Shown here: positions 25,001 through 46,000 of the stretch, one piece after another
Numbering within the stretch: the stretch's first letter is position 1
How the letters are laid out: the number at the start of each line of letters is the position of its first letter
Origin: Metridium senile
Lineage: Eukaryota > Cnidaria > Anthozoa > Actiniaria > Metridiidae
DNA: 64,000 nucleotides
Direction of reading: 5' to 3'
Assembly: GCA_949775045.1 (NCBI GenBank)
Contig: OX459100.1
Coordinates: 3,745,936-3,809,935 of the forward strand
Notes under the pieces: generated by a model
Told to the model about the DNA's origin: nothing
The model's input: only the letters and a program-made list of their open reading frames with translations
Database searches by the model: none
Position numbers and translations under genes: made by a program

Positions 25001-28000
25001 CATACATGTCCAATACACACGACTAGATTCCAATGGAATCTTACCTTTTTCCATTGGAATCTAATGGTGAGTCAAATAGGAAGGTTTGGGCTTCCTGTGT
25101 TAGGAGTTCATATCAATATTCGTCGGGTTGGAGTTCCTGTCTAGAATCCACCATTAGAAAACTGAAATCTTTAAAATTCTAATGGTGAAAGCAGCACCAT
25201 TACATTCCAATGGAAATTCCAATGGAATTCTAATGGTAAACGAAAAACTGTTTGGGCTTCCTTTGTTATTCACCATAGTTTATTCGTGGGATCCCTGTGT
25301 CAACTTCGTTCTCTCGGCCCACCACCATTAGAGTTCTAATGGTTCCAATGGTTCTAGTGGTGAAATCACCGCCGTATTTCACAACAAATATATTTGTAAA
25401 CAGCAAGAATACACAACATGACGAATCATAATCACTATCCTCGTCTTCTCCTTTTGAAATCATCTATTTTATAAGCCATTTGCACGAAATCCAGCAATCG
25501 ACCCGACCACTGCTAAAAAAGGTATTAACCTTACTATAAATCCCTCACGTTATACATCATTAGGTAAAGTTTATGTCGTTTTCAAACGATTGGAACGGAG
25601 TTTAATAATCACCTTTACTAGTAGCTCGTGGATACGGTTATCCAACCAACTTCAATCATTATAACTTTGTGTCGTTTTCGAAATACTGAAGCGGACTTAC
25701 TCGCCTAGCTTAAATTTACTAGTAGATCGCGCGGTTAATCTATTATAATAATATATGTCGTTTTCAAAACACTCAGATCACTACAACGGAACTTTCTAAA
25801 TTCTGAACTCTATAATATCTACATATATTGTAATATATGTCGTTTTCAAAACAATCGGATCACTATATCAACTTCCAACTTTAAATGTATATCCAAATCA
25901 ATTTCTTCACAGTATTACTTTGATTCATTCTTTATACTCCAATTATTAAAATTGATTCAACTCTAAAATATCTATATAATATAATATGTCGTTTTCAAAA
26001 CACTCAGATCACTATGTAAACTTCCAACTTTAAATCTACAAATATCGTATTACTTCCTTTCATTCTTTATACTCCAATTATTAAAATTAATGCCACTCTT
26101 AAATATATATATGTAATTATATGTCGTTTTCAAAACACCCAGATCACTAAAAACATTACCAACTTTAAACGTAAATAGAAATAAATTAATTGTATATCTT
26201 ATTACTTAATATATTGATTGTTTATATACTCCAATTTTCAAAATAGTGTTATATAAAATAACCATTTTATTTGAACTGATTAGAGGGAAGGCATTTAACT
26301 CAATAGAAATTGCTTGCTAAATTGTAATAGTCAAATAGTTATACAAAAGAAAACAATGGAGTTAGTCTAATATCTATTTCACAGGTTTAATGACCTCACT
26401 CTACTATATTCAATATTCCTGTTACACTGAAATATGTTATCCTACTTTCCTGATCAGCTATGTTATAGAGTGGTTTTCATTAACCCGTGAAACAAAGTGT
26501 AATAGGCAAAGAGTGATAAAGTGTATTACTGTGTAATAATGCTATTGAACAAATGATTATATTATAAAAACACAAAGTTAAAGTGTAATAAAGCACATTA
26601 CGCTAAAGTGTGTTTCACGGTTAATGAAAACCACTCTAATTGGAGGCATTCTTTATTTGCGATAACTTTGCCAACACTCTCTTTCAAAAAATTTGGTCAA
26701 GTTCTGTTTGAAAAGTTTGAAAAGTTCTGTTTCTTTTGGTCTTCTATTAGCAACCAAATTTCTAATTTAGATGTATATTGTGAAACACGGGTAGTTTTCA
26801 GACGCCAGATTTGTAGTGTTGAAATCATTTTACATATCTACTAACATCTACATATATGTACATATTGCTTCCACTGCTCTTTTTTGGTACAAAACGGGAG
26901 AAGGCGGGAACATTTAAATACCTTAAATTCAATTTCTTTTAAAACACCGAACAAACTTTAACACGTACAAATAATTGTACTCAGTAATGACATTCACCCT
27001 TACAGATGTTGATATATTTAAAGACAACAAGTACAAATTTTAAATACCATATTCACTTGACAAATTCACTGTTTTGTTTGTTCAAATGCACTGACCATTG
27101 TAAGTTTCATTTGTTTTATTATTTTTAAATATTCACTATAATATTAAGAACAAGTCGAATACATGTCAAGAAATATCAACGATGCAAATATTTATAACAT
27201 GAAAATAGACACTTCATCCGAGTCAATATGAATCCCGACAACTATTATTACAACTGGGACAGTCCAGCTGGTCAATTATACTGCGATTAGGCCCCTGCGA
27301 TTAATACTGATAGCTCTGTAATCGTAATGATATGTTTGCAATGTTTGTCCAGCTAGCCTGTTTAATTATTTTGGGATTCCCGTTTCGTCAAGTTGGACGA
27401 GAGAGGTCAAATTGGTGTAGTGGACCTTATGAAAACACAGCCAAGATGGATCATGAGAGCACTTATCAGCGAGGACTGCTATGTTAAGCTCTTGTTTTAC
27501 TATGGCTTGCATCGACAGCTATACGTCTACTTAAACGGTGATAAACTATGACTTGACTTTCAAGAATGAAATGTGCTTGTTGTAAAGATCATTGTTATTA
27601 TATGAAATAAATGTGCTTTTACAACATTAAATTGTATTCACTGGTAAACGTATATCTCATTGATTTGTTGCGACTAATAGCGAAAGGTATGAGTAGAGGG
27701 ATGAAATTAAGGAAACAAAAATGAGTGATAGTTTTTTGAACAATTATGATGCAATGTTTATAACGGTCGTGAAAAATTTCGAGTGTCATATAAACTGAAA
27801 GTCTGTTTTCCCTTGCCCTGTAGCTTTTCATTCCTTGAGATGGCAATGACATGAAATGTAAAGATCCGCCTGTGTAGATTGCCTGTGAATTTCCTGTCAA
27901 ATATCGCTGTAAGATCTAGATGAACAAGGCAATCGATAATGATTATTATCACGTGATTAAAGATAATAGTTTATGTCTGAACACTAAACAAGTACTATCT

Positions 28001-43000: not shown

Positions 43001-46000
43001 AGAAGTGCACCATTAGAACAACTAGAATAATTCATATTCCATTGGAATATCATTTTTTCCATTGGATCCATTGGATCCATTGGAATGACTTTTTGGCAGG
43101 CTCTTCTTGGGCAAGCTAATAACTTATGCATATTCCACAGGAATCCCAACAATAGAAGTGCACCATTAGAACAACTAGAATAATTCATATTCCATTGGAA
43201 TATCATTTTTTCCATTGGATCCATTGGATCCATTGGAATGACTTTTTGGCAGGCTCTTCTTGGGCAAGCTAATAACTTATGCATATTCCACAGGAATCCC
43301 AACAATAGAAGTGCACCATTAGAACAACTAGAATAATTCATATTCCATTGGAATATCATTTTTTCCATTGGATCCATTGGATCCATTGGAATGACTTTTT
43401 GGCAGGCTTTCTGTAGCTAGCAGGCTAATTACTTATGCATATTCCACAGGAATCCCAACAATAGACCTGCACCATTAGAACAACTAGAATAATTCATATT
43501 CCATTGGAATATTAGTTTTTACATTGGATCCATTGGATCCATTGGAATGACGTTTTGGCAGGCTCTTCTTGGGCAAGCTAATTATGCATATTCCACAGGA
43601 ACCCCCAAAATAGAAGTGCACCATTAGAACAACTAGAATAATTCATATTCCATTGGAATATCATTTTTTCCATTGGATCCATTGGATCCATTGGAATGAA
43701 TTTTTGGCAGGCTCTTCTCTGGCAAGCTAATTACTTATGCATATTCCAAAGGAATCCCAACAATAGAAGTGCACCATTAGAACAACTAGAATAATTCATA
43801 TTCCATTGGAATATCATTTTTTCCATTGGATCCATTGGATCCATTGGAATGACTTTTTGGCAGGCTCTTCTTGGGCAAGCTAATTACTTATGCATATTCC
43901 ACAGGAATCCCAACAATAGAAGTGCACCATTAGAACAACTAGAATAATTCATATTCCATTGGAATATCATTTTTTCCATTGGATCCATTGGATCCATTGG
44001 AATGACTTTTTGGCAGGCTTTCTATAGCTAGCAGGCTAATTACTTATGCATATTCCACAGGAATCCCAACAATAAAGCTGCACCATTAGAACAACTAGAA
44101 TAATTCATATTCCATTGGAATATCATTTTTTCGATTGGATCCATTGGATCCATTGGAATGAATTTTTGGCAGGCTCTTTTCTGGCAAGCTAATTACTTAT
44201 GCATATTCCACAGGAATCCCAACAATAGAACTTCTGTGGACAGCTAATTACTTATGTATTTTCCTCAGTAATCCGAAACTTTGATATACATAATGTGTTT
44301 TGGTATTTAGCTTCCTGCTCTCAATGTCACTTCAAGAAACCCATCGGCCCATCCACATATGGCTTCCAATGGATCCAATGGATCCAATGGTTCCAATCGT
44401 CAGTGTGATGCTCAAAAAAAATTTTTTACCTACATAAATATTTTAAGACTTCAACAACCAAAACATGCAGGATCAGAAATAGGAAACCCAAACAATTTTT
44501 ACAATCCATCATTAGAATAACTAGAATAATTCATATTCTATTGGAATATCTATTTGGCAGGCTATGCTAGATCTCTGGCAAGCTAATTACTTATGCATAT
44601 TCCACAGGAATCCCAAAAATAGAAGTGCACCATTAGAACAACTAGAATAACTCATATTCCATTGGAATATCATTTTTTCCATTGGATCCATTGGATCCAT
44701 TGGAATGACTATTTGGCAGGCTCTTCTCTGGTAAGCCAATTACTTATGCATATTCCACAGGAATCCTAACCATAGCATTGCAATGAGATTTATTAAACCA
44801 TTGTTTCTAATCGTCAATATGATTGCGTTCCTGTGTCTAAGGTAACTGCAATGATGCAATCTATGTTAATCCGATGAATCCATTGGTTCAAATTATTGAT
44901 ACATTTGGATTAAAAAAATTTTTGACACTTATGGATTCTCATCAATATTTTTCAGATAAAGCACAATAGTAAAGACTCTTAGTTAAACTTCCAGCATCAT
45001 TTAGGTACTTGGGTACCCTATACCTATGCCAAAGTACATTTATCTTCTGACCACTAGAATTCCAAAGTATTCCAATGGAAACTTAAAAACTCCATTGGAA
45101 TCTAGTCGTGTGTATTGGACAACCCTCCGGGAAATACCGGGGAATTTAACGTTTGGGTAGTGTTAAAATCAGACATTTCCCCTGGTAGTCGGGGGCACAT
45201 TCACTGTTAAAGCCCCCGCTATTGTGGCCCCGCTATTTTGGTCTAGTAGTAAATAACAAAACAAACACATTTCACTCCAACTGCAATTTCCTGTGCCACG
45301 CATAGCTAATCTTTGTGTGTTCCATTCTGATTCACAAATATTTAATGTCCAATATTTTCAGGGGCGTCAGTTGGGTTTCATAATGTCATTTTAAGTATAA
45401 AATGAACAATGCTTGTAAATATTACTTAATGAATAGTGGTTTTATTTGCACTTTTGACAAAGCCATTTTCCCTCAGGGGCAGCTCTGAGGCCCACACAGG
45501 AGAGATGATACCACATTATATCACACTCTTTGCTGTCACAGCAATCCAAACGGCTGCATGATTACAGAGGCAAAATTTCTCAGGATCATCTACAAACAAA
45601 ATTAACCAAAACAAATTAATGTAAGATATATCAATAATGGCAAAATATCATGGATAAAATCTTCAACATTCGTGATTTGTTTTCATTAAAAGTACGCATG
45701 TTGACTCACCTTTCGTTTTTCCATTCTAGCAAAGGATCGGAATATTAATATCATCCACACCTATAGAATACCGATGTTAGAATACCAATGCTTTCTGGGT
45801 ATTTTCCAAGATGGCCGACCTCTAGTTTCCAGGCCCTTACATATTCAAACGAGCGTTAAAATCCCCGCTCGCTGCCCCGCTGCGAAGACAATTAGTTAAA
45901 ATCCCGACCCCCCGGTGCAATATTGCTGTAAAAGCACGTTAAAAACGCGTCACGTCCCCGTTCAGTGCCCCGCTAGTCCCGGGGGTCGGGGGGCGGGGGT

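Follow-up and report, generated by a model that had tools for sequence, protein, structure and literature searches.

A predicted 20-kb DNA transposon carrying a CxC5 zinc-cluster gene in Metridium senile

We analyzed a 64,000-nt window of Metridium senile contig OX459100.1, in whose coordinates all positions are given (features cited without a strand have none assigned). The window contains a unit of 20,127 bp, later inserts included (25001-45127), that by the sequence of its one copy is a single inserted DNA transposon, and that carries a gene for a CxC5 zinc cluster. On either side stands the target duplication CGGGAAAT (24993-25000 and 45128-45135, both on the plus strand). The duplication is 8 bp long; the C just before it is also identical on both sides, so that a 9-bp duplication, CCGGGAAAT, starting at 24992 is possible. 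When the bases of the flanks were shuffled 20,000 times, a single shuffle produced an 8-bp repeat at equal offset (0-12), a rate of 5e-5. The terminal inverted repeats (25007-25042, plus; 45086-45121, minus) measure 36 nt with 94% complementarity, and a search of the window with the 20-base end TGTCCAATACACACGACTAG, allowing up to 3 mismatches, matched only these two ends (0 in 100 shuffles). An origin of the ends from two separate units was ruled out, the end sequence occurring nowhere else in the window. The inverted repeat starts 6 bases inside each end, not directly at the duplication, and the tips so left, CATACA (25001-25006, plus) and ACCCTC (45122-45127, plus; inverted GAGGGT), have no counterpart at the other end.

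The motif CCATTGG, counted together with CCAATGG, is confined to the ends of the unit, with 58 occurrences near them and 0 in the 17,000 bp between (25401-42400). Five lie in the left subterminal region (25001-25400) and 53 in 42401-45127, compared with 3 in the 25-kb left flank and 2 in the 18.9-kb right flank (5 in 43.9 kb). Most of the right-hand motifs (43 of 53 in 42401-44230) sit in a tandem array of 11 copies of a 153-bp unit rich in TCCATTGGA (42531-44230), and their counts are therefore not independent. The left end bears the CCATTGG-type motif on its own, without the array.

The insertion site can be read in the same way. The element interrupts a unit of 926 bp resembling a miniature inverted-repeat transposable element (MITE), which spans 24957-46017 minus 25001-45135. 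Its left part (24957-25000) begins with 40 bases that are the inverse of its right end, its right part (45136-46017) is followed by a TAA duplication at 46018-46020, its inverted ends are rich in CCCCCG, and TAA stands on both sides. A repeat at 46117 related to the surroundings of the MITE-like unit represents the site without that unit. When the flanks are joined at one CGGGAAAT and compared with the inverted copy at 46018-45959, 55 of 61 positions match; 16 of these positions stem from the right flank, 12 of them matching by hand count. The joined flanks thus restore the inverted end of the outer unit, which allows the insertion to be deduced without a second copy. The nesting, as the sequence is arranged, is that of a local repeat containing the small MITE-like unit, which in turn contains the giant element. 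That the outer inverted repeat marks the real ends of a 21-kb element was considered too and ruled out, because this repeat has its own TAA duplication and its arms stand off from the inner ones by 50 and 896 bases. An earlier note on this DNA had described inverted ends, an 8-bp duplication, CCATTGG motifs near both ends and a single large unit. The ends, the duplication and the motif counts given above bear out the first three, and together with the restored outer unit they support the fourth. The note's diverged tips of equal length are also present, at 6 bases each instead of the 7 it gave. The enclosing MITE-like unit was not mentioned in the note.

On the plus strand, the open reading frame (ORF) at 28049-28747 matches CxC5 (PF18718, E 7.2e-9, 36.3 bits against a cut-off of 26.9), a zinc cluster named for the Kyakuja-Dileera-Zisupton (KDZ) transposons. 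We model 28049-28743 as exon 1, with the donor AG/GTAATA; it has no internal stop or frameshift. A single-sequence search with exon 1 returned 3 proteins, the window's own included, and a profile built from those 3 found 128 relatives at E 0.01; the counts that follow use the best 120 of the 128. CxC5 is matched at E 0.01 by 90 of the 120, the clusters among the matches listed hold up to 54 member sequences, and two listed relatives come from the octocoral Paramuricea clavata. The closest relative among the matches listed is 47% identical (73 of the 120 rows compared). Searches of phages, viral contigs and prokaryote genomes gave no useful CxC5 relative, and the CxC5 profile matched none of the PDB sequences. 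A structure model of the exon (mean predicted local distance difference test score 84.1, predicted template modeling score 0.66) has N-terminal helices followed by a beta-rich domain with cysteine pairs; it shows no order at residues 222-232 and is of lower confidence at about 41-50 and 191-220.

The ORFs of the relatives commonly end in a basic motif such as KRMKR. These ends could be compared in 94 of the 120 rows, the other 26 lacking the motif or being incomplete. The basic motif is followed by an immediate stop in 43 rows, by F, L, S, Y or C and then V in 33, by F, Y or S and then another residue in 14, and by something else in 4, three of which (P0033, P0044 and P0052) have basic residues at their ends and, judged by eye, seem to have been split wrongly, leaving P0013. 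Translation that reads on through AG/GTAA, AG/GTGA or AG/GTNNGT yields either a stop or a codon starting with T and then V. On that ground, 90 of the 94 relatives with the motif have an ORF end that can be read as a splice donor, at the protein level only; the rows are mutually related, and the codons for L and S are not all T-first. The window ORF has the same layout, ending in KRKR before AG/GTAATA in the DNA. These protein ends suggest that each stand-alone CxC5 ORF is the first exon of a longer protein that had gone unrecognized.

Because the end of the CxC ORF looks like a conserved splice donor, what the earlier note had described as two same-strand multi-exon genes is probably one gene of five exons and 506 or 513 codons; its CxC-type gene is real, with PF18718 above the cut-off, and its multi-exon structure probably stands. 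The further predicted exons, all on the plus strand, are exon 2, an acidic linker (30025-30380; acceptor at 30025 or 30046), exon 3, the start of a C-terminal domain (33147-33427), exon 4 (34403-34533) and exon 5 (35105-35183), which ends NKRPRLE before the stop. The predicted introns are all GT-AG and the reading frame is open throughout. The coding signal sets in before the ATG at 30077 is reached, namely at 30011 with the gene left out of the training set and at 30023 with it included, which supports the join of exons 1 and 2 better than a match of frame does. The predicted protein would thus comprise the CxC5 zinc cluster, the acidic linker and the C-terminal domain, with basic stretches resembling nuclear signals. 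By eye only, the C-terminal residues from LTSLIKS to YFFIK look winged-helix-like. The 264 residues of exons 2-5 matched no Pfam family and had one NCBIfam match at E 0.048, far below the cut-off. For a 109-residue piece of these, Pfam gave only Phage_connect_2 (E 0.061), the PDB sequences gave three collagenase chains only (E 0.49-0.86), and a search of viral contigs with the C-terminal piece gave no useful match.

We scanned 25001-45127 in all six frames with Pfam, with stops written as X, at E 1 or, for two frames, at E 10. The scans recovered CxC5, the sole family above its cut-off (CxC4 overlaps CxC5). At these thresholds they gave no transposase and no fragment of one, although exons of very small size might be missed. 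They gave no hAT, BED or THAP domain, and no polymerase, capsid, integrase or herpesvirus-like domain. Several hits below the curated cut-offs were rejected: Peptidase M35, Connexin, Tmemb_55A and DUF4951 within or close to the right tandem array, CR_prot_dom_plant and PRIMA1 at a C-rich tract near 42250, TetR_C_42, Dscam_C and PRIMA1 on single ORFs, and DUF2189. The end motif had no exact match in viral contigs. Codon statistics gave no further long gene and only two coding-like blocks, at 27387-27542 on the plus strand, shortly before the CxC5 exon (13.4 bits; 27366-27548 matches no family in Pfam or NCBIfam), and at 40234-40446 on the minus strand (14.6 bits, covered by the frame scans only). 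In a reversed-sequence control, 15 segments reached up to 9.8 bits when the gene was part of the training data, and none reached 11 bits or more when it was not. A wrong frame over the CxC5 exon scored 13.4 bits in the former analysis and the right array 16.3 bits in the latter, so that scores of this size are no proof of coding.

Part of the element's length looks like later insertions, about 6.9 kb in all, which lie outside the predicted exons. Intron 2 holds a hairpin-like unit (30547-30898) and an inverted-repeat insertion with 231-bp arms (32165-33109). A probable insertion at 37016-42254 is bounded by direct repeats resembling long terminal repeats (LTRs; 37016-37322 and 41946-42254, 90% identity) and encloses an inverted-repeat element (37692-39845); Pfam found no retroelement gene in it. 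Three stretches were subtracted, 30547-30898, 32165-33109 and 36671-42254, the last of which begins with an ORF taken by eye as the end of a long interspersed nuclear element (no Pfam match). They total 6,881 bp, and 13,246 bp of the element remain. Since these nested elements would have been acquired afterwards, the insertion of the giant element is probably not recent. The 20-kb size given by the earlier note is correct for the element as it stands; about a third of it looks like nested sequence, which would put the native element nearer 13 kb. Its statement that a transposase is absent holds for transposases that Pfam can detect in the six-frame scans.

The surroundings of the element contain further genes. 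On the minus strand, 49504-50307 and 6958-7347 are parts of a probable GPR158/179-like receptor gene, matching positions 2-30 and 72-96, respectively, of one Pfam profile (49504-50307 reaches 19.8 bits on it, below the cut-off of 28.1); 49504-50307 also carries a PDC-type sensor domain (PF22673, E 4.1e-15). As receptor parts with early and late profile positions lie on both sides of it, the element probably sits within the host gene, in a stretch of 42 kb, and would lie in an intron. This receptor gene and the octocoral relatives of exon 1 point to an animal source. A large single-gene element can in this manner pass for part of a host intron. Two 342-residue ORFs for rhodopsin-type receptors (11403-12428 and 14719-15744; PF00001) are almost identical by eye, a duplication. 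A Harbinger-type transposase (18487-19551, minus; PF13359, E 9.9e-21) stands beside a divergent ORF without a family (19804-20355, plus), a layout resembling that of two-gene Harbinger elements. A reverse transcriptase ORF lies at 57966-59453 (PF00078, E 8.9e-24).

We propose, at about an even chance of being right, that the element is a transposon with one CxC5 gene and no transposase of its own, moved in trans, likeliest by a KDZ-type enzyme. Its sequence reads as a single insertion of the whole unit into the MITE-like repeat, with the 8-bp (possibly 9-bp) duplication as the product. The CxC5 protein may bind the CCATTGG-type sites crowded at both ends, with TTCCATTGGAA as the candidate target sequence, and may help to assemble or regulate transposition; cutting and joining would be performed in trans by a transposase encoded elsewhere, most likely one of the KDZ group. 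In favor of this proposal we count the ends, the duplication, the motif density, the restored outer unit, the CxC5 match with its relatives, the exon model and the transposase-free scans given above, together with the CxC1 domains, inverted ends and 8-bp or 4-8-bp duplications of Cryptococcus KDZ elements (excerpt of PMC12810828) and a "likely KDZ transposase" gene tabulated for the cnidarian Hydractinia (in the excerpted part of PMC9926710). KDZ elements bear CxC clusters and Zisupton duplications are 8 bp, as stated in excerpts of PMC12730594. A role in recognizing DNA or chromatin proteins during transposition has been hypothesized for the CxC7 cluster of Zisupton (excerpt of PMC12062965, citing Iyer et al. 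2014). The element is probably non-autonomous and may work like a KDZ element without its enzyme. We do not assign it to KDZ, since the scans looked for the transposase that defines this group and did not detect it; the missing transposase means only that this copy encodes no recognizable one, which by itself does not make the element distinct from KDZ, as the earlier note had it. At this locus, a protein of the large CxC5 family is linked to a mobile unit whose boundaries are exact, and the presence of presumed sites and presumed binder in one element makes the guess of DNA recognition testable.

Several observations weigh against this proposal. A single copy of the element was seen, that of this window, and the KDZ transposase domain PF18758 was absent from the six-frame scans. 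At the insertion site, the similarity to the other arm soon becomes only gappy beyond the closed gap, and a search of the rest of the window for the joined site itself, with up to 3 mismatches tolerated, gave no match. That exons 1 and 2 join in frame is not evidence by itself: with the frame open from 29948, chance alone would supply a few acceptors of this kind. Exons 4 and 5 are weak as coding sequence (3.2 and 5.1 bits), and a search of 5.8 billion proteins with the 264 residues of exons 2-5 gave 474 candidates but none at E 0.1, in a collection where spliced genes may be poorly represented. The CxC5 of the window is off the consensus at 7 of the 46 columns conserved at 85% or more in the 95 of 120 rows compared, exceeding 87 of these 95 members; the exon may be decaying or merely divergent. 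Finally, the CxC5/CxC6 ORFs of the oyster mushroom were not found with KDZ transposons, according to the part of PMC7641404 consulted.

Other accounts of the element were weighed against the same evidence. The CxC5 gene could itself be the mobility gene of an undescribed group, its 506-513-residue protein doing the cutting, perhaps with a host enzyme. This is quite unlikely, even though no other gene in the element could be modeled, its exon-1 family is large (128 relatives, with clusters of up to 54 member sequences), and a 6,792-bp CxC5/CxC6 insert occurs at several sites in the oyster mushroom with no KDZ transposase within the expected distance (excerpt of PMC7641404). Exon 1 has no DDE-like triad, E152 and E178 being the only acidic residues among the 46 conserved columns, its model predicts helices and a beta-rich cysteine domain, and the mushroom authors suggest the possible involvement of a Copia retrotransposon in the same excerpt. 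The related idea that a single multi-exon CxC5 protein mobilizes the element through the CCATTGG-type sites without any known transposase, which would define a new class in animals, is very doubtful; were it true, the unmatched 6-base tips would have come along with the element from the site it last left.

A hAT, P or other transposase that makes 8-bp duplications may instead have moved a non-autonomous element with a captured CxC5 gene, which we regard as rather unlikely. hAT elements begin with the consensus YARNG, which the tips CATACA and GAGGGT do not fit, the six-frame scans found no hAT, BED or THAP domain, and the name of CxC5 points to KDZ; on the other side, 8-bp duplications are usual for hAT elements and subterminal repeats are a hAT trait, in the excerpts of PMC12730594 and of further literature. 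A rather low probability also attaches to a broken autonomous element, whose transposase gene was once present and was then deleted or displaced by nested inserts. The roughly 6.9 kb of probable nested insertions and the coding-like blocks at 27387-27542 and 40234-40446 would fit such a history, against which stands the lack of transposase fragments at E 1, and at E 10 in two frames. That chance or an assembly artefact made unrelated repeats mimic a unit is highly improbable: the unit is seen in one copy only, yet its ends, the duplication, the confinement of the motif and the restored outer unit all point to one and the same pair of boundaries.

Among known systems, Maverick/Polinton and Teratorn elements resemble the one in M. 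senile in size (about 20 kb or more); they differ in duplication length and in their polymerase, capsid, integrase and herpesvirus-like domains, not found here by Pfam. The hAT elements share the 8-bp duplication and the clusters of subterminal motifs but not the tips, CATAC and GAGGG being off their consensus, and neither a hAT transposase nor a BED finger was found here. The literature, among the matches listed, showed no animal CxC5 transposon; "CxC5" led there to the oyster mushroom and otherwise, by title, to immunological or medical work. The nearest precedent for CxC5 without KDZ, as far as PMC7641404 is excerpted, is the insert of the oyster mushroom Pleurotus ostreatus, which is likewise a CxC5 ORF with internal repeats and no KDZ transposase nearby, there in a multi-copy stretch. 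It differs in being 6.8 kb long, fungal and near Copia elements and in having a 739-residue ORF with CxC6; the terms "inverted repeat" and "target site duplication" are missing from the main text of PMC7641404 as consulted. In excerpts of the respective papers, the KDZ elements of Cryptococcus are 9.2-11 kb long with CxC1 domains and inverted ends of 139-241 bp, with duplications of 8 bp in KDZ1 (about 11 kb, 241-bp inverted ends) and of 4-8 bp in KDZ2 and KDZ3 (PMC12810828), two Kyakuja families have 7-bp duplications and CA..TG ends without inverted repeats (PMC12730594), and a nematode Zisupton family encodes 1,367 residues over 31 exons, with inverted ends and no duplications (PMC9297572). 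Compared with these, the present element is 20 kb as it stands, with inverted ends of 36 nt versus 139-241 bp in Cryptococcus, unmatched 6-base tips and no KDZ transposase domain found. It resembles them in its CxC-type zinc cluster, in its 8-bp duplication, in the multi-exon genes that KDZ elements have in animals, in the inverted ends of some KDZ lineages and in size, which is near 10 kb in KDZ and about 13 kb here without the probable nested insertions.

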